A stretch of 37,146 nucleotides of DNA from Candidatus Margulisiibacteriota bacterium. GTDB lineage: Bacteria; Margulisbacteria; Termititenacia; Termititenacales; Termititenacaceae. Position numbers and translations under genes: made by a program. The first letter of the stretch is position 1. Each line of letters starts with the position of its first letter. The notes below the pieces were generated by a model, which worked only from the letters and a program-made list of their open reading frames with translations, was not told the DNA's origin and made no database searches. Where the stretch lies: the NCBI GenBank assembly GCA_031274525.1, contig JAISQA010000020.1, forward strand, positions 1 to 37,146, written 5' to 3'. Below are positions 8,547-36,454 of the stretch, piece after piece.

Positions 8547-8551
8547 AATGC

Positions 8552-8557
8552 TATACT
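8552..8557 (+). promoter_or_regulatory. -10 box directly before the DUF3800 gene (leaderless)
   Basis: TATACT is followed by 6 nt and a GTG codon at 8564. There is no Shine-Dalgarno sequence. The box lies in the 17-nt gap after collar gene 1. Confidence 0.5.
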
Positions 8558-8563
8558 TTAATT

Positions 8564-9439: not shown

Positions 9440-9527
9440 AGGGCATATCAATTGTAGTCTGTCGTCAATATTTGTCAATAGAATACTGATCAGCATTTTA
9501 CACCGCCAGTCATTTTCAAAAAGATAG

Positions 9528-18655: not shown

Positions 18656-18771
18656 AGCGTCCGGAAAATATTTTACCTCCGCGGCCGTTCCCTCGAACAA
18701 AACAAATGGGAAAAACAAAGTGCTTCCGCTCGGTGCAATGTCCGCTTGAGGTAAAATACTCCCCGGACGCT
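18656..18771. repeat. Palindromic element F
   Basis: This 116-bp element has outer arms AGCGTCCGGAAAATATTTTA and TAAAATACTCCCCGGACGCT that pair with three mismatches, extended by CCTC/GAGG. The AATATTTT-type arm recalls elements A-E, but its interior (GGCCGTTCCCTCGAAC...) is different, so it is a divergent or chimeric member. Confidence 0.7.
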
Positions 18772-18831
18772 CTGGTCAAATCCGCAGTACGCGTCTTTAT
18801 TCAGCCCTTTGCCGAGAATCTACTTTTCACT

Positions 18832-19839
18832 TTACGCCGCCGGGATAGCATATTCGTCTTTCCAGATCTTACGCCAGTACTTTTCCTTAAACCTGATTAT
18901 TTCCGCATAATCCAGCAACGGTCTATTTTCCGGGCGGCTGTGCGCTCCCCATAAAGCATAGACATCTGATCCCTTAGCATAAATCAGAGGCTCGGCCGCT
19001 TTACCGTCCCGCCTTCCCCCATACATGGCTTTTTCATCTCCGCATAAGTAGCTCCCCAGACAATACGCAATGTAGTCCAGTCTAAAATTGCGCGTATCCA
19101 GCTTAAAATTATCTATATACCTATTGTTGGCATAATACAATTTGAATTCACCCGGTAAAATACTGGTCAAAGCATAATGGTTGTTTATCCCCATTTTTTG
19201 GTCATATTCCGCATAACGCTCATTGCAAGTAACCGGGCATTTCGGACAATTAAAATCACAGGCGCTATTGAGCAATACGCGCACTTTAAAGCCGGACTCT
19301 TTAGCGTATTTCCACAAAGCCGGATTTTTAATCGCGCCTGTGCCCATTACTATCTCGGAATATCTCCGGTCTACCCTGTCCACCGCCTGGCGGGAACGCA
19401 CCATGCTGCGCACGCTAAGCCGTTTGGGTGTTTCCGGGAAAGCCCTGCTCACCCAGTCAATAAACTCGGCATTACAAACCACCACATCCGGATAAATACC
19501 GTGCAGCACGACATAAGTTTTGGCGATTACAATATCTTTATAGGTTAAACATTCATTGTTTAAGGCCAGCTCCTGTTTAATATTATAGGCTTTGGCTAAA
19601 TTCAAAATACTTACAATAAATTTATCGACATCCGCCAAATTAGAATACAGCTGGTGCCGGGTTTGAAAATTAGGCCCCGGAGGAGAAAAATATATACAGT
19701 CTATATATCCAGCCCATTTCTCAAATAATATTTTGTATTCCGCATAGGACAGGAAAGAGGACAAGCCGATGCTGAACTTCTTGCCATTTAAATCAAGTAT
19801 TCTCTGCGGTGTATTTTGGGCAGCACATTCTCCGCTCAT
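18832..19839 (-). CDS. Possible peptidase U32-like TIM-barrel protein with a CxxxCxxC motif
   Basis: I recognise no exact family. The 335-residue protein has a TIM-barrel-like alternation of strands and helices (FSIGLSSFLSYAEY, YIDCIYFSPPG, IKQELALNNE, PDVVVCNAEF, RLSVRSMVRS) that recalls U32-like barrels. A cysteine cluster follows in LLNSACDFNCPKCPVTC (C194, C198, C201, C205). The spacing C-x3-C-x2-C is that of radical SAM enzymes, but it sits mid-protein after several strands, so a U32-like metal site is equally possible. A GAAGGAGCGGG ribosome site precedes the ATG, and the gene starts 18 nt after ychF, so they are probably co-transcribed. Function unknown. Confidence 0.6.
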   Translation of the reverse strand: MSGECAAQNTPQRILDLNGKKFSIGLSSFLSYAEYKILFEKWAGYIDCIYFSPPGPNFQTRHQLYSNLADVDKFIVSILNLAKAYNIKQELALNNECLTYKDIVIAKTYVVLHGIYPDVVVCNAEFIDWVSRAFPETPKRLSVRSMVRSRQAVDRVDRRYSEIVMGTGAIKNPALWKYAKESGFKVRVLLNSACDFNCPKCPVTCNERYAEYDQKMGINNHYALTSILPGEFKLYYANNRYIDNFKLDTRNFRLDYIAYCLGSYLCGDEKAMYGGRRDGKAAEPLIYAKGSDVYALWGAHSRPENRPLLDYAEIIRFKEKYWRKIWKDEYAIPAA

Positions 19840-19857
19840 TAGTTATTTCCCGCTCCT

Positions 19858-20958
19858 TCAATTATTAAATTTAAACAACACCACATCCCCGTCCTGCATG
19901 ACATACTCCCTGCCCTCCTGCCGGACGAGGCCTTTTTCGCGGGCTTCGTGCAGGGAGGCAAAATTCTGGAGCTGCGTGTAATTGATGACCTCCGCCTTGA
20001 TAAAGCCTTTTTCAAAATCGGTGTGAATGACGCCCGCGGCCTGCGGGGCTTTCGTGCCGTTTTTAATTGTCCAGGCTTTGGTTTCTTTTTCGCCGGAAGT
20101 AAGATAGGTGATGAGGCCGAGCAGCCGGTAAGCCTGCCGCGCCAGCAGCTCCAGGCCGGATTCTTTTAAGCCGTACTCCTGCAATAACTCCCGGCGCTCG
20201 TCCAGAGGCAGCTCCGCCAGCTCGGCCTCCAGCCTGGTCGAAATGACCACAACTTCCGCCCCCTCCGCGGCGGCCAGCCCGCGGACGATCTGGACATAAG
20301 CGTCCGTGTCCGCGGCTCTGATCTGCGCCTCGGCAATATTGGCCACATACAAAACCGGCTTCTCGGACAAAAACGGCACGGTTTTTTTCAGCTCTTTTTC
20401 CTCGTCGCTGAATTCCAGTCCGCGCACCGGCTGACCGGCCGAGAGCCGCTCGCTGATTTTTTGAAAAAGCGCCGCTTCTTTTTTATCCTCCGGCCGGCCG
20501 GATTTAGCTTTTTTCTGCGCGGCATCCAGCCGCTTCTCAGCGGTCTGCAGGTCCGCGTAAATCAGTTCGAGATTGATGATCTCTATGTCGCGCCGGGGGT
20601 CCACCGAACCGCTGACATGCACGATATTGGGATCGTCAAAACAGCGCACAACGTGGGCGATCGCGTCCACCTCGCGGATATTGGCCAGAAATTTATTGCC
20701 CAGTCCCTCGCCCTGCGCCGCGCCCTTGACCAGTCCGGCAATGTCCACCAGCTCAATAGCGGTGGGAATAATTTTGGCGCTGTGGTGCATGCCCGCCAGC
20801 GCCGCCAGCCGCGCGTCCGGCACCTCGACAATGCCGACATTGGGGTCGATCGTGCAAAAAGGATAATTCGAAGCCTCCGCGCCGGCGTTGGTGACCGCGT
20901 TGAAGAGCGTGGATTTGCCCACATTGGGCAGGCCGACAATGCCGATAGAAAATCCCAT
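19858..20958 (-). CDS. ychF: Ribosome-binding ATPase YchF/Obg-like
   Basis: The 366-residue OBG-family protein begins [22 protein letters not shown] with the Walker A motif. [21 protein letters not shown] is the G3 region, where YchF characteristically favours ATP. A coiled-coil arm lies at about 140-210. The C-terminal TGS domain includes [27 protein letters not shown] and ends [11 protein letters not shown], the usual YchF terminus. The ATG follows TAAAAT by 6 nt with no Shine-Dalgarno sequence. Confidence 0.97.
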
Positions 20959-22948: not shown

Positions 22949-23386
22949 ATGGCCAGAGAATATGCAGGCATAAAATCGGGAGAAGAAATTAGAGCTGCCG
23001 ATATGAATGCGGCGTTGAATACTAAACTCAATCTGCTCGGCAATGTGAAGGAAACTATTCTCGGACAGAAAGAGTTCGAAGTATCGCCAACGGTGCCAAC
23101 CAAAGTATCCGCATCAGGGAATAGCCCCACGGTCATCGCCACCGAGGCGCAGGTTTATAACGTGCAAAGCCGCCTCAACACAGAGCCCAGCCTCAATGGC
23201 GAGACACTGAATAGAAAACTCACCACCACGGGCACAGAAACCATTTATGGAACAAAAACTTTTAACATATCACCACCATTGACAACAGGCAAAAGTACTT
23301 TTCCCACGGGCGACACCGCCACCACCAAAACAGCCGTGGCCACCGAGGCGCAGGTTTCCATGATAGCCTGCTGGAATAGCAATTAA
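22949..23386 (+). CDS. Tail-fibre-like repeat protein 1
   Basis: The 145-residue protein starts with SGEEIRAADMNAALNTKLNL, of the kind seen at phage tail-fibre N-termini. It then has two units of about 45-70 residues with the pattern KxF..SP.VPTK.....G.S.TVIATEAQVY, ending WNSN. Such GKxF-(vP)-(ATxAxV) repeats are typical of trimeric phage tail fibres. A GGAAAGGGGG ribosome site precedes the ATG. It is the first gene of the island on the plus strand and a paralogue of the next gene. It has no signal peptide. Function is unknown; an adhesive or displayed fibre is inferred. Confidence 0.7.
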   Translation: MAREYAGIKSGEEIRAADMNAALNTKLNLLGNVKETILGQKEFEVSPTVPTKVSASGNSPTVIATEAQVYNVQSRLNTEPSLNGETLNRKLTTTGTETIYGTKTFNISPPLTTGKSTFPTGDTATTKTAVATEAQVSMIACWNSN

Positions 23387-23421
23387 ATTTTATTGCGCTT
23401 TATTTTGAAAGAGGGGTTTTT

Positions 23422-23859
23422 ATGACGAGAGTGCTTTATACGGCGATACAGCAGGGGCAGAGGATCACGGCCCAGGACATTACAAATGCGCTGAATGCTA
23501 AAGTCAACCTGGATGGGCCCGATGATTACCCTATTGATGGACAGAAAACTTTTGCATTATCGCCAGTGGTGCCGGCCAAAAGTACCGCAGCCGGGAATAA
23601 CGCTACGTACATCGCCACCGAGGCGCAGGTCTATCTAGTAAACTCTGCCTTAAGCACTGCAATAACCAACGCCGCGGCAGGCCTCACAACGAAAGTCAAC
23701 AAGGGCACAAGCGCTGCCGATGGAGTAAACGAAACTATTTACGGAACAAAAACTTTTGATACCTCGCCAGTGGTGCCGGCCAAAAACACCGCGGCCGGGA
23801 ATAATTCTACGGTCATCGCCACTGAGGCGCAGGTCTATAAAGCGAGCCTGTGGCAATAA
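23422..23859 (+). CDS. Tail-fibre-like repeat protein 2
   Basis: Also 145 residues, with the same plan as its upstream neighbour: an N-terminal QQGQRITAQDITNALNAKVN, then two fibre units (QKTFALSPVVPAKSTAAGNN and TKTFDTSPVVPAKNTAAGNN, each ending IATEAQVY). The two units are nearly identical in DNA (about 23560-23630 and 23765-23840), so recombination between units or between genes is likely. A GAAAGAGGGG ribosome site is present. It lies 31 nt before the first radical SAM gene, in the same operon. Confidence 0.7.
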   Translation: MTRVLYTAIQQGQRITAQDITNALNAKVNLDGPDDYPIDGQKTFALSPVVPAKSTAAGNNATYIATEAQVYLVNSALSTAITNAAAGLTTKVNKGTSAADGVNETIYGTKTFDTSPVVPAKNTAAGNNSTVIATEAQVYKASLWQ

Positions 23860-23890
23860 AGCTGCGGCAATAAAATAAGGAACGGTACTT

Positions 23891-24991
23891 ATGCGGGTAA
23901 TTCCGGAAGAATTTAAATTGAACAGCTATGAAATAATTATGACGTGGGACTGCAATCTGCGCTGCGTCTACTGCTATGAATGCCAGCCGGACAAAACGAC
24001 CACCGCCCTGCGTCAAACCAATAAAGAACCCCTGTCTTCCGGAAGAATAGACGAGATCCTTGACTTTATTGTCGAGACGCATGATAAGCACGTGCCGGAG
24101 CTTAACATTATTTTCTGGGGCGGTGAGCCGTTTCTGGCGTTTGAGCAGATCAAAGAGCTGATCGCCAAATTTGAACAGGCGCAGGCCGCGGGGCTGCTCA
24201 AAACTAAAGCAACCTACACCACCACTTCCAATCTTACCACCCTGACGCTGGAACAAATGCAGTATCTGCAGACCAAACCCTTCAGCATTCTGGTCTCGCT
24301 GGACGGACTGCCGGAGAGCACGGACGGCAACCGCGGCCGGGGTACTTTTGCGCAAGTTATCCGCAATATGGCGCTGCTGGAGGGGCTCCGGATCCCCTTT
24401 TCGGTGCGGATGACTCTCACCGGGGAGCCCGCCGCGCTAAAAAAGGACCTGGATTTTGTCAATGAACTGGGACATCCTTTTTGGTGGTGTTTTGACCATG
24501 CTCATAAAACGCTGACTCCGGCGGATCTGGAGCAAATCTTGCCGGTTTTCTTAGACTTTTATAGAAAGCACCGGGTCAATCACGCCCGGACTCTGGATAA
24601 ATATCTGGGCAAGAAAAACAACAAAACGCACTGCATTGACCCTTATTATCAGGTAACCATAGATCCGGAAGGCCAGCTGCGTATTTGCTCCAGAGTGGAC
24701 TGGATCATTGGCAATATTCAAGAGGGCTTCACGCAATACGCGCAGGTCAAAGAACTGCCGTTCTATACCGGCCGGCCGCCGGACACCTGCGCGGACTGTC
24801 TGGTCTATGAATGTTGCAAGGGCGGCTGCATCGGCGCGCATTTTGAGAAAAATCCGGAAAAAGCTCTTAACTATCGGCTGAATGATAGTTTTTGCAAGGA
24901 AATGTTCTTAATGCAGCTGCTCAACGAGAATTTAATTTTGGGACAGCAGTACAATGAACTAAAAAAAGAAACCGAGGAGGCGCTGGCATGA
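23891..24991 (+). CDS. Radical SAM/SPASM protein 1
   Basis: The 366-residue enzyme has the radical SAM motif C21-x3-C25-x2-C28 in TWDCNLRCVYCYE, the SAM-binding WGGEPFLAF near 72, and SLDG near 135. The C-terminal SPASM-like domain is cysteine-rich: HCIDPYYQVTIDPEGQLRIC, then DTCADCLVYECCKGGCIGAH, and SFCKEMF. SPASM enzymes usually act on peptides or proteins. AAGGAA precedes the ATG. Its TGA overlaps the ATG of the Asn/Tyr/His-rich protein gene (ATGA), so the two are translationally coupled. That makes the downstream protein the leading candidate substrate. Confidence 0.9.
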   Translation: MRVIPEEFKLNSYEIIMTWDCNLRCVYCYECQPDKTTTALRQTNKEPLSSGRIDEILDFIVETHDKHVPELNIIFWGGEPFLAFEQIKELIAKFEQAQAAGLLKTKATYTTTSNLTTLTLEQMQYLQTKPFSILVSLDGLPESTDGNRGRGTFAQVIRNMALLEGLRIPFSVRMTLTGEPAALKKDLDFVNELGHPFWWCFDHAHKTLTPADLEQILPVFLDFYRKHRVNHARTLDKYLGKKNNKTHCIDPYYQVTIDPEGQLRICSRVDWIIGNIQEGFTQYAQVKELPFYTGRPPDTCADCLVYECCKGGCIGAHFEKNPEKALNYRLNDSFCKEMFLMQLLNENLILGQQYNELKKETEEALA

Positions 24992-25776
24992 CTTATTCGA
25001 ATCATATAAACGCGCAAGCATCAAATAGCTATACGAATTACACCAATTACTCCATCACGGGCGGCTGCGATCATTACGGCAATGCATGCTCTCATACAAA
25101 TAGGCATGCCAATTCCGATTACAACTCGCCCAATTACAATTCATATTATGGGCTTGTTACTAGTTACACTTATATCAATCACTACAACCATTATAATGTC
25201 GGCCATCGTTATTTTAATCAGACCACTCACTACAACTGCGCGCAGGTATATACCAATCATGCCAATAAATCCATTACCCATCCCACCGCCTATACGCTGG
25301 GGATCGCGGCCACCGCGCCGGACGCCTGGACCGGACTGAGCTCGGCCATTGCAGACATCAAAAAACTGCGGAACGAAATCAACACCCTGAGCACCGTAAA
25401 AGTAAAATCCACGGGCGCCCCGCTTACGGCCGCAGATGATCCGGTTAATACGAAAAATGCAGATGCAGAGTTTGGCCCGGGCAAACTGGCCCGGGCAGAG
25501 CAAATCAATGAAACTATCAGCAATGTGGAGCGTTTATGGAGGGCAATTAAAGGGTCAACATCGGGGTTCGGATTAACTAGCAAGACCGCCGGAGTTTCTC
25601 CCCGGAAAAAGCAGGACTATAAGGACATTATCGCCAAAGCCCAGGAATTAGCCAATTGCACCCAGACCTCTGGTTATGCCAATCACACCAATACTGGCAG
25701 CGGAGTGTCCGGATACGCCAATACTTGTAGCCACTGTACTAACACCAGCTGTACTGACAGGAATGTTTCCATTTAA
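24988..25776 (+). CDS. Asn/Tyr/His/Thr/Cys-rich protein, candidate radical SAM substrate
   Basis: I recognise no family. The 262-residue protein has three parts. Residues 1-100 are dominated by Asn, Tyr, His, Ser and Thr in short [Y/H]xN-like units (SYTNYTNYS, YINHYNHYN, YTNHANKS) with cysteines C27, C34 and C83. Residues 105-225 form a more ordinary, partly helical region (APDAWTGLSSAIADIKKLRN, GKLARAEQINETISNVERLW). Residues 225-262 return to the biased composition (SGYANHTNTGSG, ANTCSHCTNTSC). It is coupled by an ATGA overlap to radical SAM protein 1. The composition, cysteines and context suggest a modified precursor or display protein. This is inference; no leader cleavage site is obvious. 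Confidence 0.7.
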   Translation: MTYSNHINAQASNSYTNYTNYSITGGCDHYGNACSHTNRHANSDYNSPNYNSYYGLVTSYTYINHYNHYNVGHRYFNQTTHYNCAQVYTNHANKSITHPTAYTLGIAATAPDAWTGLSSAIADIKKLRNEINTLSTVKVKSTGAPLTAADDPVNTKNADAEFGPGKLARAEQINETISNVERLWRAIKGSTSGFGLTSKTAGVSPRKKQDYKDIIAKAQELANCTQTSGYANHTNTGSGVSGYANTCSHCTNTSCTDRNVSI

Positions 25777-25796
25777 TAAACGCAAGGAGTTAATTT

Positions 25797-26078
25797 ATGA
25801 CTATTGAAGAACTGGACACCTGCACGCTTTGCGGCAAGCCCATGGCAGAAATCCTGGTCCTGACAGAAGTCACCCTGGAGATACACAGCCGCTATCACCG
25901 GGAAGATGACACCTTTGAGAATATGAACGGACTGCAAAAGAAAACTTCCGAGTTTCTCTGCGAAGAATGCTTGCAGCAATTTGTGGAAAAATTGACCTCT
26001 TTTACCACCGAGCGCCGGAGTTTCGCCAGCCCGGAGGCCGCGGCGCAGGACGGTCAGGATGTTCCGGCAGTCAAATAA
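25797..26078 (+). CDS. Small CxxC...CxxC (zinc-ribbon-like) protein
   Basis: The 93-residue protein has two cysteine pairs, C9/C12 (CTLC) and C55/C58 (CEEC), spaced as in a rubredoxin-like or zinc-ribbon knuckle fold, with acidic intervening sequence (EDDTFENMN). AAGGAG precedes the ATG. Its stop overlaps the next start (TAATG), so it is coupled to radical SAM protein 2. It could be a recognition or chaperone protein, an electron carrier, or a further substrate; the sequence does not decide. Confidence 0.7.
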   Translation: MTIEELDTCTLCGKPMAEILVLTEVTLEIHSRYHREDDTFENMNGLQKKTSEFLCEECLQQFVEKLTSFTTERRSFASPEAAAQDGQDVPAVK

Positions 26079-27391
26079 TGTTTGAGAATGTTCACGAAAT
26101 TATCCTGAAAGTCACCCGGGACTGCAATTTAAGATGCGCTTACTGTTATGTACGGAATAAAGACCGCTACCGCGGCGAAAGAATGTCTTTCGCGCTTTTT
26201 AAGCGGTTAATCGACCGTTATGTGCTGGATCAGCAGAAAAACAGTCCGGACAGACAAAAACAGACGCTATCTTTAATTTTTCACGGCGGCGAACCGACAC
26301 TGCTGGATACTCATGAACTGATCCGTTTTATGAATTACGCCCGGCGCAAAATACCTTATATCCAGTTTGGCATGCAGACCAATCTCACGAATATTTCGGC
26401 GGAGCTGGCCATAATTCTGCAGAAATACGGCATCTCGCCGGGCATCAGCGCCGACGGCTGGCATTCCCGTTTCAACCAGCTGCGCACGCGCAGACAGAGC
26501 AAGACCATTTTTCGGAATGTCCGCCTGCTTAAGCAGTACGGAGTAAACTGTGCTCCGTTGATAATTATCAATAAGCTCAATATCCGATCAATTCTGACCA
26601 ACATACAGAGAATGTTAAAAATTTTCGGCCTGCAGGATATCAAAGCCAATTATGTGGAAAACATTTATACCTCCGATCCGGCTTATCCAGAAGTAAGCGC
26701 CGACGAGCTAATAACGCAATTATTCCTGCCCGTAATTAACCAGTTAAAGAAAAAGCAGGTTATTGTCGAAACGAATATTGCGGGCATGTTAGACCGGTTT
26801 TTTCAGACCAGCCTTTTCGGTGTAAATAATGATCCGGACAAGGATAACGTTTCCGGCAACTGCTATATGAAATTCTGCGCCGGGGGAAATAATATCGTCG
26901 AAGTGGACGCGGATGGCGCGGTGTGCTCCTGCGGGCGCTGGGATGCTGTTCACGAGGTCTGCCAGCTGGGTTTTATCAACACCGCGGATCCCTGGGGCTT
27001 GCGCTCCTACGGCAAAGCAGCCTGCCTGCAAATCCAGAAAGCCCGGCAGCTGCGCAAAAAACACTGCGATATCTGCCCCGCCCAGAACATTTGCAGTTAC
27101 GGCTGTCTGGCTTTCGCCTACGCCAAATACAAAGACTTTCGCATCCGCGAGGAGTTGGTCTGCGCCTATCACCTAAAAGCGAAAAAATATCTGCAGGAAA
27201 ACAGCTCTCTTATCTTAAAAGCCTACGCTGGAGCAAGGCAGTGGCCGGTGCGGAAAATACATAAAAAGATTTTTACCGTGGAGCTCCCGGCGGGTTTTCC
27301 GCCCTTAAATGAGGCGCAGATCAGCCAAATGCCCGGCTGGTCTGTTGTCAACGTGGATGGGCAAAATCTTTTGCAGGTAATTTTATGCTAG
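26078..27391 (+). CDS. Radical SAM/SPASM protein 2
   Basis: The 437-residue enzyme begins MFENVHEIILKVTRDCNLRC; its radical SAM cysteines are C16, C20 and C23. FHGGEPTLLD is the SAM-binding motif. The SPASM region holds GNCYMKFCAGGNNIVEVDAD, CSCGRWD, and HCDICPAQNICSYGCLAFAY. A C-terminal segment of about 60 residues (QWPVRKIHKKIFTVELPAG...) follows the SPASM domain and is shared with protein 3. I chose the ATG at 26078, which overlaps the previous stop; family homology starts there. Proteins 2 and 3 are tandem paralogues. Confidence 0.9.
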   Translation: MFENVHEIILKVTRDCNLRCAYCYVRNKDRYRGERMSFALFKRLIDRYVLDQQKNSPDRQKQTLSLIFHGGEPTLLDTHELIRFMNYARRKIPYIQFGMQTNLTNISAELAIILQKYGISPGISADGWHSRFNQLRTRRQSKTIFRNVRLLKQYGVNCAPLIIINKLNIRSILTNIQRMLKIFGLQDIKANYVENIYTSDPAYPEVSADELITQLFLPVINQLKKKQVIVETNIAGMLDRFFQTSLFGVNNDPDKDNVSGNCYMKFCAGGNNIVEVDADGAVCSCGRWDAVHEVCQLGFINTADPWGLRSYGKAACLQIQKARQLRKKHCDICPAQNICSYGCLAFAYAKYKDFRIREELVCAYHLKAKKYLQENSSLILKAYAGARQWPVRKIHKKIFTVELPAGFPPLNEAQISQMPGWSVVNVDGQNLLQVILC

Positions 27392-28761
27392 AAAATGTCT
27401 ATCACCTTATTTTAACTGTAACACGGGACTGTAATCTGCATTGTCAGTACTGTTTCGAGCAGGACAAGCAGCGCTACCGGCAGGAAAAGATGACGCTGGA
27501 ATGTTTTCAAAAATTTCTAGACCTGCTGTGTTATGAGCGCCGGAAAAATCCCGGGACTGGCCCGGCGCTGGAGATCTGTTTTCACGGCGGTGAACCGCTG
27601 CTGGCGGGGCGGGCGCGGCTTCAGCAGTTTATAGATGAAGCGCACCGCCAATTGGGCAAAGACCGGGTATTCTTCAGCCTGCAGACCAATGGCACGCTGC
27701 TGGATAAAGACTGGACGGACTGGGCGGAAAAAAACAACTGCCACATAAGCATCAGTCTGGACGGCTATAATTACCGGGCCAATCGGCTGCGTTTCACCCG
27801 TCAGGAATTTGCCCGGAAAAATCCCCTGCGGCGCGGCGTAAAAATATCCGGGGTGCTGGCGCTGCTGACACGCAATAATCTGTCTTCGCTCATTCCTTTT
27901 CTCCTGTATCTTTTCCACAGGCACAGGCTCGACTGCACCCGCGTCAATGCCGCGGAACTGGTCAATGCCCCCGGCCCTTGCCAGGAAGAGCTGACCGGGA
28001 CATTGCTGACGAAAAAGTTTTATATCCCTCTTTTACGCTGCATGGCTTTCTGGCCCTGGTTTAGCGAATACCATATACGCACCGCCTTGCAGGATTTTGC
28101 CGCGGGGTATCTGTATACCAGAGATGAGAAATATCCTAACAGCGGGTGCGTGTTATGCGGAGCTAAATTTTGCGGGGCAGGCAATGGCATTATAAATCTG
28201 CTCCCGGACGGCGATCTCTGGGCCTGCCAGCGCTCGCTGGGTCTGGAAAGTTACCGGCTGGGCAGTGTTTATGACCCGCCGGACTATTTCGGTCTGGCCA
28301 GTTTCGGCAAATTATTTGGCCTGGCTTATCAGATGGCACAGTCTATCCGGGCCAAGCGCTGCGACACCTGTTTTGCCGCGGACATCTGCGATCATGGCTG
28401 CCGGGCTTTTGCCCTGCTCAAGACGCAGGGCGCGGCGGCGATCCGGCCGGAAATAGCCTGCGAAACATATAAAAGTTTGAAGAAATATTTGGGCAAAGAC
28501 CCCTACAATCATCTGGTTCTTTTTGCTTTTTTACATAAATTCCCGGTGCGGAAAGAACGCTCTTTGATCCAGATAGAAATTCCCCGCCGTCTGGATACTA
28601 TCAACGGTCACCACGAAATAGGCTGGATCCGGGATCCGCAGATTCAGATCTTCAATAAAGACAATAAAATCTGGATCACTTTTGCGAAGAAGCGGGTAAG
28701 CCCGCCCCTTTTATTCTGGCTGACAGCAGCCGGATGGCGCAGGAGGAGTAAAAGACCATGA
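27385..28761 (+). CDS. Radical SAM/SPASM protein 3
   Basis: The 458-residue paralogue of protein 2 starts MLENVYHLILTVTRDCNLHC, with C16, C20 and C23, then CFHGGEPLLAG, LQTNGTLLD and ISLDGYNYR. The SPASM cysteines appear in GCVLCGAKFCGAGNGIINLL, WACQRS, and RCDTCFAADICDHGCRAF. The shared C-terminal extension is recognisable as KFPVRKERSLIQIEIPRR. It overlaps protein 2 by 7 nt and protein 4 by 4 nt, so all are co-translated. The extreme C-terminus (PPLLFWLTAAGWRRRSKRP) is hydrophobic then basic, a possible membrane-touching tail. Confidence 0.9.
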   Translation: MLENVYHLILTVTRDCNLHCQYCFEQDKQRYRQEKMTLECFQKFLDLLCYERRKNPGTGPALEICFHGGEPLLAGRARLQQFIDEAHRQLGKDRVFFSLQTNGTLLDKDWTDWAEKNNCHISISLDGYNYRANRLRFTRQEFARKNPLRRGVKISGVLALLTRNNLSSLIPFLLYLFHRHRLDCTRVNAAELVNAPGPCQEELTGTLLTKKFYIPLLRCMAFWPWFSEYHIRTALQDFAAGYLYTRDEKYPNSGCVLCGAKFCGAGNGIINLLPDGDLWACQRSLGLESYRLGSVYDPPDYFGLASFGKLFGLAYQMAQSIRAKRCDTCFAADICDHGCRAFALLKTQGAAAIRPEIACETYKSLKKYLGKDPYNHLVLFAFLHKFPVRKERSLIQIEIPRRLDTINGHHEIGWIRDPQIQIFNKDNKIWITFAKKRVSPPLLFWLTAAGWRRRSKRP

Positions 28762-29783
28762 ATATAGCCCTGACCACCCGCTGCAATAAAAACTGTTCTT
28801 TTTGTTTTGCCAGAGCACACCGGCAGGAAAGTTCACCGCAGGATATGGCGCTGGCTGATTTTCAGCGGCTGGTGGAATTGGCCCTGCAGGACTCGCCGCC
28901 GCAGCCCCTTAAGCTGCTGGGCGGCGAGCCGACCATCCATCCGCAGTTCGTGGAGATGCTGGACTTTCTGACGCGGAAAAATGTCCGGGCCACGTTAATT
29001 TCTAATCTGCTGTATACCGATGCAAGAGTGCGGGCGCGGCTTTATCAAGCGGCGCTGGAGGGCGTCATTGACGGCGGCCTGGCCAATGCGGCGGAACTGG
29101 AGATTGACAATCACCTGGAGATTTTTAAGGCCAATTTCACCGCTTTGCAGGAGGCCTGCGCAAAACACGGACGGGGGTATCTGACCGCGGGGATAACCCT
29201 GTCCCGGCGCAAATCGGCCGCGGAAGAAACAGCCTATGTAGAATATCTGGCCGGTAATTTAGAAATAGCTTGCCTGCGCCTGTCTCTGGATTTTCAAGCG
29301 GAAAATAAAAAAGATGAGTTTTTCATAAACAACAAGGAGCAGGGTGAAAAAATTCTGGCTATCGTGCATAAATGTCTGGATCTGCGTATTCCGCCGTCCT
29401 GGGACTGTAAATTGTTTCCCTGTATGTTCGAGCCAAAAACATTTCAAAAAGACATTATTGGCTTTATCAACAGCCTGCGCACCGGTTGTCCGGTGGACGG
29501 CGCACCTTTCGATGTGTTCCCCGATATGTCGTATATTCACTGCTATCCGGCCCGCATCCTTTGCGGGAAAAACATTCTGAAATTTTCGCGTATTTCTGAA
29601 GCACAGGGGGAGATTGCTTTTCTGAAAAAGGCCCTGCGAGGGCTTAGCCAGCACTCTTTACCGGACGCCTGCCGGGATTGCGGCTACTATCAGACCGGGC
29701 AATGCGATTCGCTGTGTCCGGGCTGCCAGGAGATCACCGCGCCGTTTTTGGTAAATCAAGTTGCCTCAAGCACTGGCTTATAA
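28758..29783 (+). CDS. Radical SAM protein 4
   Basis: The 341-residue enzyme has C9-x3-C13-x2-C16 in TTRCNKNCSFCFA at the very N-terminus and LLGGEPTIHPQF as the SAM-binding motif. The C-terminus carries auxiliary-cluster-like cysteines: DCKLFPC, YIHCYPARILCG, DACRDCGYYQTGQCDSLCPGC. It is not closely similar to proteins 1-3. ATGA overlap with protein 3. The last 32 bases of the gene (29751-29782) match the 3' end of the convergent glycosyltransferase gene at 28 of 32 positions, so its terminal residues may be the product of a small duplication. Confidence 0.88.
   Translation: MNIALTTRCNKNCSFCFARAHRQESSPQDMALADFQRLVELALQDSPPQPLKLLGGEPTIHPQFVEMLDFLTRKNVRATLISNLLYTDARVRARLYQAALEGVIDGGLANAAELEIDNHLEIFKANFTALQEACAKHGRGYLTAGITLSRRKSAAEETAYVEYLAGNLEIACLRLSLDFQAENKKDEFFINNKEQGEKILAIVHKCLDLRIPPSWDCKLFPCMFEPKTFQKDIIGFINSLRTGCPVDGAPFDVFPDMSYIHCYPARILCGKNILKFSRISEAQGEIAFLKKALRGLSQHSLPDACRDCGYYQTGQCDSLCPGCQEITAPFLVNQVASSTGL
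29751..29782. repeat. 32-bp direct repeat, left copy (end of radical SAM gene 4)
   Basis: This stretch begins GTAAATCAAGTTGCCTCAAG and matches 29813-29844 at 28 of 32 positions, 62 bp apart. The copies code the sense end of radical SAM gene 4 and the antisense end of the convergent glycosyltransferase gene. Confidence 0.75.
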
Positions 29784-29799
29784 GAAGCTCTAACGCTTC
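29784..29799. terminator. Small hairpin between convergent genes
   Basis: GAAGC and GCTTC flank TCTAAC in the gap just after radical SAM gene 4. No T-run is present; the terminator role is inferred from position. Confidence 0.3.
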
Positions 29800-30641
29800 G
29801 GTTGCCGGGAAAGTAAATCACGTTCCCTCAAGTACTCGCTTATATAACTATTGGAGTGGTTCCACTTAGGACTTTTTAAACAAGTAAAGTCCAAATCCGC
29901 AAAATTATGCTCTTTTAAGAGCTTTTTTAGTGACTCCAGCCATAAAAAATCCGCATTTAAATAGTCTATCCGATTTACAACATTGAATCCGTTCACCGAT
30001 TGTATTCCACCCGGACCCGGAAGCATTATTACCGGATGAGCTCTATATACCAGTGTATGATCGCCCTGCATCAGTATTGTTTGATAATTTTCTTTACCGG
30101 TGACATAGGCCAGCCCCACAGGATGGAGCCAGTACTGGTATTGGGTTTTTAAGAAAAGCCTGCTGGCCAGCCGGGAGATATAAATAATCCGGGGAATAGA
30201 AATAACAAACCCTTTAAACGCCGGGGATAAGTAAGCATTAAGTCTGGCGATAAAATCTCTGGGCACAGCATCATCATTGTCGATACGAAAACTGATTGAA
30301 AGACCGTCTCGAAAACAGACATGCTCCCGCACAAAATCATATGTGCCCCACTCTGAGGGCTGCGCCAAATAAATATTGCGCAGAAAAGTATTCTCCTGTT
30401 CCAGTACCTTAAATCTCTCTTTGTATTTATCCGGCATATCATCCGCATGTAATAACAGCAAATTAAAATTTTTGTCCGTTTGTGTTTGCAGGCTTTTCAG
30501 AGTAATTTCCTGAAAAATTTTAAACCTGTATTCAAAATATTCCGGCGCAAAAACATCTACAGGAGCCCCCCCCCGGCCAAGAGGTATATGTTCAGAATAT
30601 TGCACCAGGCCAATTATGGGCTGTCGTTTTATTTCTGACAT
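29790..30641 (-). CDS. Putative rhamnosyltransferase-like glycosyltransferase
   Basis: The 283-residue protein resembles the putative rhamnosyl transferase family (GT-A fold). It has SLQTQTDKNFNLLLLHAD, a segment LSISFRIDNDDAVPRDFI that carries the metal-binding DxDD motif, and FNVVNRIDYLN near the end. It starts right after the stop of the tandem GT2 gene (2 nt between), so the two are co-transcribed. The assigned sugar is not reliable. It most likely acts in cell-surface or protein glycosylation together with its neighbours. Confidence 0.75.
   Translation of the reverse strand: MSEIKRQPIIGLVQYSEHIPLGRGGAPVDVFAPEYFEYRFKIFQEITLKSLQTQTDKNFNLLLLHADDMPDKYKERFKVLEQENTFLRNIYLAQPSEWGTYDFVREHVCFRDGLSISFRIDNDDAVPRDFIARLNAYLSPAFKGFVISIPRIIYISRLASRLFLKTQYQYWLHPVGLAYVTGKENYQTILMQGDHTLVYRAHPVIMLPGPGGIQSVNGFNVVNRIDYLNADFLWLESLKKLLKEHNFADLDFTCLKSPKWNHSNSYISEYLRERDLLSRQPKR
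29813..29844. repeat. 32-bp direct repeat, right copy (end of glycosyltransferase gene)
   Basis: Partner of 29751-29782, with four mismatches. It encodes, on the minus strand, the YLRERDLLS region near the glycosyltransferase C-terminus. Confidence 0.75.
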
Positions 30642-30643
30642 AT

Positions 30644-32359
30644 TTAGCGCACCGGAGTTTCCGCGGATTTAGCCGACAAGGTTTGGATCATTGTTGCTTG
30701 TTCTTTCAAGGTTTCTTCTTTAGTCTTGTTCATTAGGAAATGTTCGAAATACCGTATCCAGACGCCGTTACTATCACAGGCTTCCCTCACATAACTAAAC
30801 CACTCTGCGCCGGGAATATACCAGAGAAAAGCCAGATATAGCCAGCGTTCATACCGGCTAAACATATTGTAAAATCCCGGCTCATTTAGAATTTCCGAAA
30901 CTGCTATAAAATGTTTTATATAAGCCAACATTTTGGGCTTGGTGTTTATTTTATTTTCTCCCGCTATTCTGTATGCATAAAAATCCAGCGGAAGAATATA
31001 TATTTGCCCAACCTTTATCAGTACCCGCGCTAAAAAAATCACGTCCTCGCCCACCAGATAATCCGGGAACCAGATCTGCTCCCTGATTAAAAAACTTTTT
31101 CTGTATATGCTCCTGAAGAAATACCAGGGAATATCATAATCTTCCGGAGGCAGAAGCTTCTCCTTGCCGCTGTACCTGCGGACATACCGATTGTCCTTTA
31201 ATTCTCCGTTCTCGTCATTTTTAAAATTCGCGCAGACCATTTTGGCGGTATTTTCTTCCGCCAGAGCGACCATTTTTTCCAGCGCGGCGGGCTCCAGCAG
31301 ATAATCATCCGCACCCACAAAAGCAACATACCGGCCCTGTGCTATGAGCAGTCCCTTATTTCGCGCCGCTCCGGAGCCAGCATTTTCCTGAGGCACAACG
31401 CGGATTTGCGGAAATTTAGCCGCATAGGCTTGCAGTATAGCAGCGGAATTATCTGTGGAGCCGTCATTTATACAGATTATCTCTATCTCTTTGAGTGTTT
31501 GTCCCAGCACGCTGTCCAGACAGGCGCTTAAATATCTGTCCGCATTATAGACCGGAATGATGACAGAAAGCAGCGTGTTTTCGTCATCTGTATATGTAAC
31601 CGGCAGGAGGGACAGCATCTCCCAATCCTCCCGGTCTCTGGCAAATTCTCGTATTTTTTTTACGGCATAATCCGTGTTTTTTTCGACGGTTTCCTTGATA
31701 TCTGCCTCATTACTATTCATAATCGAACCTGGATTCCGCGTGTGGATATAAGCAGCTCCCGGAACCAGGGCAATTTTCTTTGCGTAATATGCCGCCCGCG
31801 GCGTAAATAGCACATCTTCTGCGCCTACGCGCAGCCTGCGGTCAAAAATCAAACCATGTTTATCTAAAAACTCTTTTTTATATAGATAAAACCAGGCCAC
31901 CATATGAACATCTCGATTAAGCGCCTGTTTATCTTTGCTTATCGTTAATATCTCCTCCCGCGCAAAAGATATTGAGTGGGTGGGATATTTTTCATTATAA
32001 TAGCCGCCGCAGGTCAGCTCCGCGCCGGTTTTCACCGCAACATTCCATAGTTTTTCATAATAATCCGGATAAATAAAATCATCGGCGTCCAGAAAATGAA
32101 TATACTCTCCGCGGGCCGCGCGCAGGCCGCTGTTCCGGGCCGCAGATAACCCCTCATTGGCCGGATGTTTTATTACTTTGATCCTGGCATCCTGTTTGCC
32201 TGTATCGGCACAGATAACGCCGGTATTATCTGCCGAGCCGTCATCCACAACAATGATCTCCAGTTCCCGGTAGGTTTGTCCGCGGACACAGTTCAGACAG
32301 CGTGTTAAATACCGTTCTGCATTATACGCTGGAATAACAACCGAAATTAATTTTACCAT
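30644..32359 (-). CDS. Tandem GT2 glycosyltransferase (two domains)
   Basis: The 571-residue protein has two family 2 (GT-A) domains. Domain 1 (1-240) has ISVVIPAYNAERYLTRCL, IIVVDDGSADNT, HFLDADDF and the later GAEDVLF motif, so it looks active. Domain 2 (about 265-520) has LSVIIPVYNADRYLSACL, ICINDGSTDNSA and GEDVIF, but its DxD region reads VGADDYL rather than LDSDD. The C-terminal helical region (IKHFIAVSEILNEPGFYNMF) is also found in the GT2-like domain of the fusion protein at 33527. It probably heads the minus-strand pair; no clear ribosome site precedes the ATG. Confidence 0.9.
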   Translation of the reverse strand: MVKLISVVIPAYNAERYLTRCLNCVRGQTYRELEIIVVDDGSADNTGVICADTGKQDARIKVIKHPANEGLSAARNSGLRAARGEYIHFLDADDFIYPDYYEKLWNVAVKTGAELTCGGYYNEKYPTHSISFAREEILTISKDKQALNRDVHMVAWFYLYKKEFLDKHGLIFDRRLRVGAEDVLFTPRAAYYAKKIALVPGAAYIHTRNPGSIMNSNEADIKETVEKNTDYAVKKIREFARDREDWEMLSLLPVTYTDDENTLLSVIIPVYNADRYLSACLDSVLGQTLKEIEIICINDGSTDNSAAILQAYAAKFPQIRVVPQENAGSGAARNKGLLIAQGRYVAFVGADDYLLEPAALEKMVALAEENTAKMVCANFKNDENGELKDNRYVRRYSGKEKLLPPEDYDIPWYFFRSIYRKSFLIREQIWFPDYLVGEDVIFLARVLIKVGQIYILPLDFYAYRIAGENKINTKPKMLAYIKHFIAVSEILNEPGFYNMFSRYERWLYLAFLWYIPGAEWFSYVREACDSNGVWIRYFEHFLMNKTKEETLKEQATMIQTLSAKSAETPVR

Positions 32360-32507
32360 TAGAAATGGCTACGCTATAGATAACTTAATCTGTACAGAAA
32401 TACACATTATAAATCACTATCTCCCAGATAGGTACTATATTACCTTGATTTAGACCGATTTGACGTTCCTTATATGCAACCCGTCAGGAGAAAGATAACC
32501 TAACATA

Positions 32508-32532
32508 TATAATATAGCTAGATGAAAGGAAA
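32508..32532 (+). promoter_or_regulatory. Candidate promoter and ribosome site for the plus-strand GT2 gene
   Basis: TATAAT (32508-32513) lies about 10 nt before GAAAGGAAA, which precedes the TTG start at 32539. No convincing -35 box is seen. The 179-bp divergent gap holds no gene. Confidence 0.5.
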
Positions 32533-32538
32533 TCTATT

Positions 32539-33519
32539 TTGCCTCGCACCTTCGAGCGCTCAGGGAATAGCGGTCCTGTAATTTCTGTCATAATCCCTGT
32601 CTACAATGTAGAATTATATCTGGACCGTTGTCTGGACAGTATAGTCCGGCAAACCTATCAAAATCTGGAAATTATCATCGTGGATGACGGTTCGACGGAT
32701 AATTCCGCGGAAATATACACTCGTTATGCCCGGCAGGATCCCCGGATAAAAATAGTAAAACAACCCAATCAAGGCCCTGCCGCCGCCAGGAATACCGGAC
32801 TGGAACAGGTTTCCGGCGATTATATTCATTTTATGGACAGCGACGATCATCTGATAGAAGCAGATTATTACGAGAAGCTGCTCTTTGCCGCGCTGGACTC
32901 CGGGGCGGATCTGGCCTGCAGCGGCTTTTTTCTGGAGGACAAGTGGCATACTCATCAGCACTCCCGGAGAATTTTGACTGATATTGACGAAAAAATATCT
33001 CTGGTGAAACTGAATTTTTGCGTCTGGATTTATTTATTCAGCACGGCACTGGTCAAAAGGCGCCGCCTGAGATTTGACGTCTCACTCTACGTCGCGGAAG
33101 ACATGCTTTTTTCTGTCGCTGCGGTATACTACGCGCGCAAGATAGCGCTGGCGCCGGAAACCACTTATTATCATCGGAATAATTCCGCGTCTATTTCCCG
33201 AAATCTGGCCCCGGGTCTCGAAGAAAAAAAACAGCGGGGACTGCGTCTGGCCTGGGAGAAAATTCGGGCTTTTTCCGAAAATCATTATCTGGGCAGAGAA
33301 TTTGAGGATTTTTTTTTATGGCGGAAAAAAAGAATCTTCAAATACAAGTTTTTCCAGATTACTTTCCTGAAAAAAGTTGTTTCTTTATATAAGATCAGCT
33401 GGTATTTGTTCGGTTTTTTGCCTGTTTTAGCCTACATTTACGTCAAGGAGCTGGATGAGTCCCTGCCGTTTTCTGACCCCCGTGATTGGCCGCATGCTGA
33501 CCGCGGTTTTTTGGGCTAG
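32539..33519 (+). CDS. GT2 family glycosyltransferase
   Basis: The 326-residue single-domain GT-A enzyme has ISVIIPVYNVELYLDRCLDS, IIIVDDGSTDNSAEI, AARNTGLEQVSGDYIHFMDS with the DSDD motif, and VAEDMLFSVAAVYYA as the acid/base region. The C-terminus is basic with a hydrophobic stretch (KISWYLFGFLPVLAYIYV), suggesting membrane association. A TTG start is used because GAAAGGAAA lies upstream and no in-frame ATG fits. It is related to domain 1 of the divergent tandem GT2 protein. The large fusion gene follows 7 nt after its stop. Confidence 0.88.
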   Translation: MPRTFERSGNSGPVISVIIPVYNVELYLDRCLDSIVRQTYQNLEIIIVDDGSTDNSAEIYTRYARQDPRIKIVKQPNQGPAAARNTGLEQVSGDYIHFMDSDDHLIEADYYEKLLFAALDSGADLACSGFFLEDKWHTHQHSRRILTDIDEKISLVKLNFCVWIYLFSTALVKRRRLRFDVSLYVAEDMLFSVAAVYYARKIALAPETTYYHRNNSASISRNLAPGLEEKKQRGLRLAWEKIRAFSENHYLGREFEDFFLWRKKRIFKYKFFQITFLKKVVSLYKISWYLFGFLPVLAYIYVKELDESLPFSDPRDWPHADRGFLG

Positions 33520-33526
33520 CCGTCTT

Positions 33527-36454
33527 ATGCCCCGGAAAGAACTCCCCATAATATATGTAACCGATGACGCTTACGTCATGCCCACCGGGGTATCAATTAC
33601 CTCTCTAATAAAAAACAAACACCCCCGGACAAGCTATAAGATATTTGTTTTAGGCGTAAATCTGTCCGACCAGCACAAAAAACTACTGGAAAGTCTATCG
33701 GCAGAGAACGCTGAAGTAAAAACACTGGCCCTTGCGGATAAGGATTATACATATGACATACACCCGTCTATCAATTATATTTCCAGGGCCACCTATGCCC
33801 GTTTTGACATCATAAATATCTTTAAAGAATATGCCGCTGTTCTTTATCTAGATGGAGACACCATAATCCAGACCGATCTCTCCAGTTTGTTTCTCATTAA
33901 TTTAGCGAATAACTATGCTGGAGTAGTGCGGGATATTTCCCTCGTATTTAATGATGGACGGCACCGGGATTACTTTAATGCCGGAGTTTTACTCCTGAAT
34001 CTAAAAAAACTGCGGGCCGAGCAGGTATATTCCCGTCTGCGGGAGCTGGCCGCCATGCATATGAATTTTCGTTTTAATGATCAGGATATTTTAAATATTG
34101 TCTTTTATAAAAAAGTTACTTTCTTGTCCCTTACCTACAATTACATTCCGCAGTCAATGGAAAAGGACACCCCCCCGCTGGAAGAAATTCTTTCGCTGTA
34201 TGAAATTGAATCTTCCGAATTAACCCGCATACGCCAGGCCCCGGCCATTGTGCATTACGCCGCGCCTGAAAAACCCTGGACGCATTTTCCTTTGAGTTTT
34301 ACAGAAGTCTGGGTCAACTATTATCGTCTATCCCCTACCAAAGTTTTGCCTATAAAAAGGAAACGGTATATCCCGATCCCGCCTTATATTAAAAGAGCCT
34401 GCCCGCTTTCTATAATAATCCTTGTAAACAACAATACGGACGCTTTAACAAACTGTATAAACCGGCTATTGGCGCAAACCGTAAAAAATCTGGAAATAAT
34501 TTGTATTGATAATGCCTCCGACGGCAGCTCAGGACATATACTCAAAGATCTTGCCAACAGGCAACCCGACCCCATAACTATATTTTATCCAAAAGGCGCC
34601 AGCCCCAATCCAGCCCGGAACAAAGCGCTGGAGATTGCCAGCGGAGAATATATCTGTTTTTTGGATCCTGCTGATTATTATGAACAGCCTCAGGCGCTGG
34701 AAATAATACTGCATACAGGCTGGGAGGAAAGAGCTGACTTGCTCAGCATTCACCGTTCAGACCAGGAGCAGGCGCCTGACCCTAAAACCGCCCGGAAAAA
34801 GGCGCCTTTTAATATTTCTATCATACAGCCCCGGGAATACGCGCTATCATCTTCTTTGCAAAGAAACATTTTCCGTAAAGAATTTCTGCTGGCTAATGCG
34901 ATCTGGTTTCCGGATTATTTAACCGGCGGAGAAACTGTTTTTCTGGCAAAAGTCCTGTCCCAGGCAGAACGTCTGGTGGACATCCCTCTGAATATCTATA
35001 TTCCGGAGTCCGCGCCGCCTAAAAATCAGTCCCAAATAATAGATTTTATGAAACACTATCTGGAAGTTACGCAAATTTTATGTGAAGACTACTTTAAGAA
35101 TACTTTGTCATCATACACGGAATATTTTATCCGGAAACTTAATGCCTTAAATCTGTCTTCCGCAGAGTTTACCAGCAGCGTTTTGGCGGCCTGTCAAAAC
35201 GATCTAAACTTAGTAAATACATTTTTAACCAGCTTGCGGCAAGAAACGCCGCCAAAGCGCCCGGACACGGAAGAGCAACAGCGCACAGCCCCCGTCCCGG
35301 CGCCGCCGGAGGCACAACCCTCATCGGAACGCTCAGCCCCCGGATTAGGAGAGCTTGTTTCCCGGGTTTCCCTGCGCCTGCGGGATCCTGTTTTTTATAA
35401 GGCGCTCAAAGCCCAGAATCTGTTCAGGAGGCCGGTGTGTTATGCTCCGGTAGCTTCTCTCCATTTCTCGTTTCATGGCTCCGTATATGCCTGCTGTTAT
35501 AATTATCAAGATGAATTAGGGCATTATCCTGAAAATAGCATCCGGCAGATCTGGCTTGGACAAAAGAGAGCCAGGCTGACAAAAAACCTCAACAATTATA
35601 AGTTTAATAATCTCTGCCAGCGCTGCCGCGGGCAAATATTAAACCAAAACGGCAATGTTTTTAGTTCTTACGATGAGCTGATGGCGCACGCCATCCCGGA
35701 ATATCCGTCCAGCCTGGTGTTTAATTTCGCCAATATCTGTAATCTCGAATGTATAATGTGCAGCGGGGTACAATCATCCAGCATTAGAAAAAACAGAGAA
35801 GCAGAGGCGGTGGAGCCTGTTCCTTACGATGAGGCTTTTGTCGAACAGCTGACCGAGTTTATTCCCCATTTGAAACACGCGAATTTTTTAGGCGGGGAAC
35901 CGTTTCTTTTTCCGCTACATTACAAAATCTGGCAGACCATCGCCCGGTTGAATAAAAATCTCCCTGTGTATGTAACATCTAACGGCAGTATTTACAATAA
36001 ACAGGTGCAGGCCGTGCTCGATAGTCTACCAAATTTACGTATCTTAATTTCTCTGGACTCCTTAAATAAAGCCACGTATGAATCTATACGTAAAAATGCC
36101 CGCTTTGAAACGGTCATGGAGAATGTGCAGCGCTGGATAGCCCAGGATAGGCTCGCCGGAATATGCATATGTCCCATGATCCAGAATGTTTATGAACTAC
36201 CTGCTTTAGCAAAATTTTGTGAAAAACATAACCTGAATTTTTGGTTAAATGTAGTGGATGGGCCTTTATCCTCAGTAGCCCCTGTGGCTGTTCCTGAATT
36301 CAGGCTGGCTACGCTGCCCTGCGAGCAGCTCCTGGCTATCATAGAAATGCTGGGAAAAACCGAGGCCGATTATGCTTCCCCAAGAATAAAAGCCACCCTT
36401 AGGGGATTTAAACAACAAATATTGTCTTATATCCAGAAAGACCCCGCCGCCTAA
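33527..36454 (+). CDS. Fusion of GT8, degenerate GT2 and twitch/radical SAM domains
   Basis: The 975-residue protein has three modules. Residues 1-270 are a GT8 enzyme: IIYVTDDAYVMPTGVSITSL, LYLDGDTIIQ with the DxD metal motif, DYFNAGVLLLNL and NDQDILN. Residues about 285-560 are GT2-like but with motif decay: LDPADYY replaces DxDD and TGGETVF replaces GED. A Pro/Glu/Ser-rich linker (about 580-625) leads to an N-terminal-type twitch domain (CYAPVASLHFSFHGSVYACC, LCQRC) and then a radical SAM core with CNLECIMC (about 738-745) and LGGEPFLFP. I prefer the ATG at 33527 to 33455, which would overlap the previous gene and add unrelated residues. The fusion ties glycosyl transfer to radical chemistry on what may be one substrate. 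Confidence 0.85.
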   Translation: MPRKELPIIYVTDDAYVMPTGVSITSLIKNKHPRTSYKIFVLGVNLSDQHKKLLESLSAENAEVKTLALADKDYTYDIHPSINYISRATYARFDIINIFKEYAAVLYLDGDTIIQTDLSSLFLINLANNYAGVVRDISLVFNDGRHRDYFNAGVLLLNLKKLRAEQVYSRLRELAAMHMNFRFNDQDILNIVFYKKVTFLSLTYNYIPQSMEKDTPPLEEILSLYEIESSELTRIRQAPAIVHYAAPEKPWTHFPLSFTEVWVNYYRLSPTKVLPIKRKRYIPIPPYIKRACPLSIIILVNNNTDALTNCINRLLAQTVKNLEIICIDNASDGSSGHILKDLANRQPDPITIFYPKGASPNPARNKALEIASGEYICFLDPADYYEQPQALEIILHTGWEERADLLSIHRSDQEQAPDPKTARKKAPFNISIIQPREYALSSSLQRNIFRKEFLLANAIWFPDYLTGGETVFLAKVLSQAERLVDIPLNIYIPESAPPKNQSQIIDFMKHYLEVTQILCEDYFKNTLSSYTEYFIRKLNALNLSSAEFTSSVLAACQNDLNLVNTFLTSLRQETPPKRPDTEEQQRTAPVPAPPEAQPSSERSAPGLGELVSRVSLRLRDPVFYKALKAQNLFRRPVCYAPVASLHFSFHGSVYACCYNYQDELGHYPENSIRQIWLGQKRARLTKNLNNYKFNNLCQRCRGQILNQNGNVFSSYDELMAHAIPEYPSSLVFNFANICNLECIMCSGVQSSSIRKNREAEAVEPVPYDEAFVEQLTEFIPHLKHANFLGGEPFLFPLHYKIWQTIARLNKNLPVYVTSNGSIYNKQVQAVLDSLPNLRILISLDSLNKATYESIRKNARFETVMENVQRWIAQDRLAGICICPMIQNVYELPALAKFCEKHNLNFWLNVVDGPLSSVAPVAVPEFRLATLPCEQLLAIIEMLGKTEADYASPRIKATLRGFKQQILSYIQKDPAA

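Follow-up and report, generated by a model that had tools for sequence, protein, structure and literature searches.

The window analysed here is the 37,146-nt contig JAISQA010000020.1 (contig C33 of genome G000, a 1.6-Mb draft genome of a Margulisiibacteriota bacterium). It carries at 22949-29783 an operon of eight genes, all co-directional and mostly overlapping, which forms one functional unit. The products are two fibre-like proteins, four radical S-adenosylmethionine (rSAM) enzymes, a small CxxC..CxxC protein and an Asn/Tyr/His-rich protein, called X here, which is the putative substrate of the enzymes. The operon is a real, conserved and phage-linked protein-modification module. Its core is syntenic in a second bacterial genus, Candidatus Termititenax, and five of the core genes recur in three phage contigs, which bears out the proposal, made in a preliminary description of the window, of a protein-modification system built around repeat-rich or fibre-like proteins. 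That description missed X as the probable substrate, the Tyr/His-x-Asn code within it and the phage connection. The more specific reading is that of a tail-fibre maturation module which termite-gut Margulisbacteria have in common with phages, and whose enzymes would cross-link a large repeat protein with a part in adhesion; we hold it at about even strength.

The repeats of X and the rSAM enzymes

X (24988..25776, + strand, 262 aa) has a disordered N-terminal region with 14 [YH]xN triplets, a predicted helical middle (about residues 110-222) and a short C-terminal YxNHxN...YxN segment. In its AlphaFold model both tails are disordered; with a mean predicted local distance difference test (pLDDT) score of 37, the model was not used for a fold search. 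The spacing of the triplets was examined by shuffling each X protein with its composition kept and counting Asn at +1 to +5 after Tyr or His. In the window X, Asn follows at +2 17 times against 3.7 expected, a count that none of 20,000 shuffles reaches. The X proteins of the phages give 20 against 5.7, 10 against 3.1 and 16 against 2.3, and that of Termititenax gives 11 against 4.5 when Asn and Asp are counted together. The +2 excess is thus present in all five X proteins, with no excess at +1, +3 or +4; an excess at +5 in some of them is probably an echo of tandem repeats such as YxNHxN. The proteins are 220-307 aa long, with 11-23 candidate sites each, and in one of them, from the phage contig L102, 18 of the 24 Tyr/His residues obey the +2 rule. 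The first three X proteins (window, Termititenax and phage contig L017) share the YxNHxN that closes the N-terminal region and the H.N...Y.N of the C-terminus; the fourth keeps most of these elements, although the sequence around them has diverged.

A [YH]x[ND] density scan of 9,293 open reading frames (ORFs) placed the five X proteins on top, including that of L102, which was unrecognised at the time. When 1,561 distinct ORFs were scanned in a second round, z>4 was reached by four only: three of the X proteins and a fibre from a marine phage.

Such triplets recall the triceptides, in which SPASM enzymes form a bond between an aromatic residue and the beta carbon two positions on (i+2); the known i,i+2 pairs include Trp/Phe-Asn, Trp-Asp, Tyr-Asp, Tyr-Arg, His-Arg and His-Ala (PMC11002830). 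The triplets of X agree with this chemistry, in which Tyr and His are already known as first residues and Asn and Asp as third ones (PMC11002830). The window X has the aromatic-x-(N/D/S/R/K) tripeptides typical of triceptide precursors. From their gene context, the rSAM enzymes probably modify X. The reaction may well be a cross-link by a C-C bond that joins Tyr/His (i) with the beta carbon of the Asn/Asp two residues later (i+2), as the substrate code suggests. The enzymes would act on X after translation, and up to about 17 three-residue cyclophanes would rigidify its otherwise disordered tails, with the helical middle and the CxxC protein serving as docking elements.

Three of the enzymes combine radical SAM and SPASM domains: rSAM1 (23891..24991, + strand, 366 aa; PF04055, 2.6e-11), rSAM2 (26078..27391, + strand, 437 aa) and its paralogue rSAM3 (27385..28761, + strand, 458 aa; 31% identity). 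The fourth, rSAM4 (28758..29783, + strand, 341 aa), has a Cys-rich auxiliary domain at its C-terminus. All four match PF04055 (E 3e-16 to 2e-9), and with the rSAM domain of a glycosyltransferase fusion further downstream they make up the five radical SAM proteins first counted in the window. In rSAM1, rSAM2 and rSAM3 the CX3CX2C cluster motif reads DCNL.C.YC and is invariant in relatives, with PF04055 above its cut-off. The same three enzymes carry the full SPASM cysteine set, C..GX4C ... CX2CX5CX3C ... C, at C248/G261/C266/C300/C303/C309/C313 in rSAM1, C267/G280/C285/C330/C333/C339/C343/C362 in rSAM2 and C263/G276/C281/C326/C329/C335/C339/C359 in rSAM3. The SPASM model itself, PF13186, is below cut-off for rSAM1 and unreported for rSAM2 and rSAM3. 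The nearest solved structures are CteB for rSAM1 (5WGG, 2.5e-30) and anSME for rSAM2 (4K36, 4e-24). The enzyme family points to peptide modification in general; the assignment to cyclophanes comes from the substrate code.

Several observations weigh against that assignment. No NCBIfam family model reaches its cut-off for the operon enzymes, and this includes the cyclophane synthases (3-CyFE: XyeB, GrrM, FxsB, YhhB); the best score to any of these is 82-88 bits, for rSAM2 and rSAM3 to YhhB, whose cut-off is 445. The best NCBIfam family for rSAM1-3 is PapB (NF047865), at 100-122 bits (121.6 for rSAM1) against a cut-off of 340. The +2 excess is weakest in the Termititenax X, where Asp has to be added to Asn. 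An excess of aromatic-x-Asn is also seen in a phage trimeric-fibre repeat (L105), and since such repeats can produce the same pattern, the motif alone is no proof. The X of L102 has no convincing alignment to the others and is assigned by position and motif rather than sequence. Finally, five systems are known in all, two of them from one sample.

PapB is a thioether-forming family, and its rank brings up the possibility that the enzymes are ranthipeptide- or PapB-type thioether synthases acting on the cysteines of X, the Tyr/His-x-Asn repeats being structural or metal-binding. PapB is also the best-scoring family for the rSAM1 of the phages, X has 7-11 Cys in three of the five systems, and parallel loci of the bacterial family (see below) use Cys-rich substrates. 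Against this, every PapB score is far below cut-off, the X proteins of L102 and L062 have the full motif excess with one and three Cys, respectively, and the best-kept elements of X are YxNHxN and not Cys. We consider thioether formation unlikely. The families ranked after PapB are SCIFF, anaerobic sulfatase maturase, YhhB, DynA and similar peptide maturases, all far below cut-off (TIGR04115 gives 61 bits to the window rSAM2, with a cut-off of 350). For the rSAM2 of L102, DynA ranks first, with YhhB, XyeB and AmcB high.

Somewhat less probable still is another modification of X or of the fibre proteins, such as epimerisation, C-methylation, hydroxylation or backbone excision. In proteusins, rSAM epimerases are known to act on Asn-rich repeats, and several enzymes per operon suggest more than one reaction. 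A chemistry confined to Asn, however, leaves the recurrent Tyr/His two residues ahead unexplained, and SPASM enzymes of this subgroup mostly form cross-links.

Phage and bacterial carriers of the core genes

Of the relatives that carry the operon, the closest is Candidatus Termititenax aidoneus NkOx7-01 (BGZN01000008.1), of the family Termititenacaceae in the Margulisiibacteriota. The gene order is that of the window: fibre A, fibre B, rSAM1, X, CxxC, rSAM2, rSAM3, rSAM4. Identities are 60% for rSAM1, 46% for X, 57% for the CxxC protein, 55% for rSAM2, 50% for rSAM3 and 65% for rSAM4. The preliminary description had named X, rSAM2, rSAM3 and a GT8-GT2-rSAM fusion as a set to be looked for together; the first three do occur together in Termititenax, whereas the fusion is not conserved. 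X has strong support in only these two of 74 phylum genomes (a further match among the 74 Margulisbacteria is weak, E 0.0013). It is absent from a complete genome of the same genus, and a single-sequence search of the genome contigs with X gave no match. The patchy distribution fits horizontally moved genes.

Three viral contigs of 178-201 kb (L017/4399, L062/4404 and L102/2465) have an X-type protein, CxxC, rSAM1, rSAM2 and rSAM4 clustered, with tail-fibre genes within about 11 kb of the module in all three. L017 (179 kb) was located by a viral-contig search with rSAM2. It has, in order, a 901-aa tail fibre (a long-tail-fibre distal subunit in PHROGs), another rSAM, rSAM1, X (307 aa), CxxC, rSAM2, a 205-aa protein and rSAM4. 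The other two were located with rSAM1 and rSAM4 profiles. L062 (201 kb) has three CxxC domains, two rSAM2-type enzymes, rSAM1, rSAM4 and one X, with Peptidase_G2 as the tail-fibre match nearby; its X aligns with the first three X proteins at an hhalign probability of 81%. In L102 (178 kb), rSAM1-, CxxC-, rSAM2- and rSAM4-type genes stand directly before the X-like gene, and an 894-aa fibre with a PHROG long-tail-fibre match lies about 5 kb beyond it. Profiles built without L102 recover its rSAM2 (2e-73), rSAM4 (3e-54), rSAM1 (9e-28) and CxxC (4e-7). Among the five systems, rSAM3 proper is found in the two bacteria only.

The CxxC gene (in the window 25797..26078, + strand, 93 aa) adjoins an rSAM2-type gene, or is fused beside one, in each of the five systems; this points to a dedicated partner, probably of rSAM2. 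Neither the CxxC protein nor X gave anything informative against PHROGs, Pfam or NCBIfam, and the AlphaFold model of the CxxC protein (pLDDT 72) had no fold match at E<=0.001. In annotated phages, tblastn with the phage rSAM2 returned distant rSAMs only and the phage rSAM4 none; two annotated phage records with distant rSAMs lack an X-like ORF. Campylobacter phage CP220 was considered as a member and rejected: it has rSAM genes, but its first 100 kb hold no X-like or CxxC gene. One of its proteins (L119, 24206-24577, CPT_0032; 123 aa) has 20 Cys in 60 residues with NCKNCINCSNC repeats, and is not adjacent to rSAM genes.

X and the fibre-like proteins probably form or decorate an attachment fibre. 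The product would be a host-recognition fibre in phages; in the termite-gut bacterium it would be an adhesive appendage, either on the surface or secreted. The module would have been exchanged between phages and Margulisbacteria of termite guts. A broader and more tentative generalization, which we rate below the tail-fibre reading itself, is that phage multi-enzyme rSAM modules cross-link aromatic-x-Asn (or Cys-rich) tail-fibre repeat proteins and that Margulisbacteria use the module for adhesive fibres of their own. The symbiont lineage of the window is known for attaching to other gut microbes. If these readings are right, some of the fibres by which phages and symbionts attach receive chemical cross-links post-translationally, cross-linking being a way of building an attachment structure. 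A class of stapled multi-cyclophane protein fibres would then stand beside the small peptide natural products, with several new enzymes for Tyr and His. The many rSAM genes that lie unexplained in the host-recognition regions of phages would share a common function, one that can be tested for the rSAM clusters of large phages, and phage-bacterium exchange of fibre-modifying genes would be suggested in a symbiont lineage.

The operon, its surroundings and parallel loci

Within the operon, the genes at 23891-29783 overlap or nearly abut, as first described for 23.9 to 29.8 kb: the overlaps are 4 bp at 24988 and 28758, 1 bp at 26078 and 7 bp at 27385, and a gap of 20 bp precedes the CxxC gene. 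The start of rSAM2 is placed at ATG 26078 because its relatives in Termititenax and a phage begin there with the same MF.N sequence; an upstream in-frame ATG at 25967 was dropped in its favour. The ORF map holds all the genes named in the preliminary description, that is, the fibre-like, rSAM, Asn/Tyr/His-rich, CxxC and glycosyltransferase genes.

The operon opens with two fibre-like proteins of 145 aa each. Protein A (22949..23386, + strand) has tandem 'NETIYGTKTF...SP...VATEAQV' repeats, and protein B (23422..23859, + strand) has a C-terminus, ATEAQVYKASLWQ, identical to that in Termititenax. Their earlier label of tail-fibre-like is based on the short repeats, on BppL_N matches below the Pfam threshold (E 3.5e-4 and 8e-5) and on the fibre family in related genomes. 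The Termititenax operon and three type II loci (see below) are each preceded by a homologous pair. The pair could itself be the main substrate, with X a scaffold, adaptor or metal-binding partner. Its place before rSAM operons at these four further loci and the C-terminal YKASLWQ conserved between genera speak for this. Against it, the fibre family is abundant (13 places in G000 and 18 in G006, many unchecked for a neighbouring rSAM), the repeated tripeptide sits in X and not in the fibre, and X varies with the type of rSAM (Y/H-x-N or Cys). This alternative is improbable, and X remains the preferred substrate.

In the type II loci (L121, L122 and L123), which belong to the same bacterial family, the two fibre-like proteins precede a Cys-rich protein (259-267 aa; pattern 'CVCVARCTCNAR...CECD...'), an rSAM (275-277 aa) and a SPASM rSAM (568-574 aa), with an additional rSAM in L121 and L123. 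Homology of the Cys-rich protein to X is not supported (hhalign probability 4%). Giant CXXX-repeat Cys proteins are encoded on another contig of the window genome (G000:C15, L125) at 8088-9479 (- strand, 463 aa) and 18711-20000 (- strand, at least 429 aa). Each adjoins a TIGR04115-like rSAM; the G000:C15 enzyme scores 275 bits with a cut-off of 350. Close relatives of this enzyme are found in seven of eight family genomes, up to seven per genome, and none in other phylum genomes at the threshold used. These parallel modules suggest that the lineage repeatedly pairs repeat proteins with rSAMs, the window operon being the Tyr/His version.

Repeat-rich or Cys-rich proteins were also seen near rSAM genes in phages. 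On one contig (L095, 6832-8342 and 12793-14254), two rSAM genes are surrounded by four repeat proteins rich in His, Tyr and Asp (GHDNDLHSTY...), near tail-fibre genes. A phage protein with a Cys-rich C-terminus (CQRSCQIQCQTACQTSCQGC...; L105, 11347-11946) lies within a run of four rSAMs just after tail-fibre genes. Apart from these, at L124 164-2634 (G004:C4) fibre-like N-termini are joined, by reading, to an apparent C-terminal domain like formylglycine-generating enzyme (FGE) or C-type lectin, a fold often used by targets of diversity-generating retroelements.

The preliminary description had taken the island as one unit up to 36454, including its glycosyltransferase (GT) genes, and this does not hold. 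The 999-aa fusion consists of GT8 (2e-47), GT2 (9e-18), SPASM and radical SAM (2e-12) by Pfam, and has separate-domain matches only, with no full-length relative in the bacterial family. The remaining GT proteins are a PF11316 rhamnosyltransferase, a double GT2 and one GT2. Two GT genes (29790-32359) are transcribed from the other strand, converging on the operon, and a conserved link to it was not seen. Termititenax has different genes downstream: a 736-aa radical SAM-domain protein, an aminotransferase-like protein and a GT2-rSAM fusion unrelated to that of the window. For these reasons 29790-36454 is excluded from the system. The four GT-containing genes might instead mark the 13.5-kb island as a surface-polysaccharide locus beside unrelated rSAM genes, with no protein modification involved. 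That is very improbable, as the core order is kept without these GTs in a second genus and, in part, in phages, and the fusion is not conserved.

On the other side, the flank at 2014-22427 is ordinary chromosome (guaA, guaB, dnaK, dnaJ, grpE and aroC, from translations read by eye), so the window copy lies outside any evident prophage. The window has no tail structural genes next to the operon, its flanks being chromosomal, and a domesticated contractile tail was rejected, as the sheath gene PF04984 is absent from G000 and G003. Amid the housekeeping genes are two tail-collar-like proteins with HTHTTSGTAA repeats (7746-8546, with a weak Gp10_C match, E 0.0055, and 10257-10799). A DUF3800-VIII RNA motif (Rfam RF03075, 66.5 bits) lies at 9383-9447 (- strand), at the 3' end of gene 8564-9394, whose protein looks DUF3800-like.

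Comparison with known systems

As the preliminary description held, no described system with this combination of genes was found in the literature. The small peptides for which rSAM/SPASM enzymes are known have one or a few cross-links. The nearest in substrate code are the triceptide enzymes (XncB, OscB/GrrM, FxsB, YxdB, HaaB and YhhB), likewise SPASM rSAMs acting on aromatic-x-polar tripeptides. In contrast to their precursors, X is 220-307 aa long and has motif regions on either side of a helical domain, and several rSAMs per substrate, a CxxC partner, tail-fibre neighbours and phage carriage are peculiar to the present systems, where no 3-CyFE model passes its cut-off. The ranthipeptide-type maturases (PapB, SCIFF and the CXXX-repeat family TIGR04115) are nearest to rSAM1-3 in score (PapB) and to rSAM1 in structure (CteB). 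They act on Cys, whereas here Tyr/His-x-Asn is the conserved code, and Cys occurs just once in one of the X proteins.

The His-Xaa-Ser (Hxs) system is a repeat protein with two rSAM maturases and resembles the module in this pairing. Its motif is HxS instead of [YH]xN, and HxsB gives 44 and 64 bits to rSAM2 and rSAM3 with a cut-off of 370. Several rSAM genes in a large phage are also found in Campylobacter phages CP220 and CPt10, whose 11-12 rSAM genes were read as metabolic (PMC2853527), and in pelagimyophages, where rSAM cassettes vary within the host-recognition cluster (PMC7029224). The Campylobacter phage rSAMs differ in being seen as auxiliary metabolism, with a substrate protein never proposed. 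No paper proposing that phage rSAM enzymes mature fibre proteins was found, in a body of literature that lacks most subscription papers. The module is set apart from the rSAM peptide-maturation systems by the size of its substrate, its tripeptide code, the number of its enzymes, its CxxC partner and its tail-fibre context.

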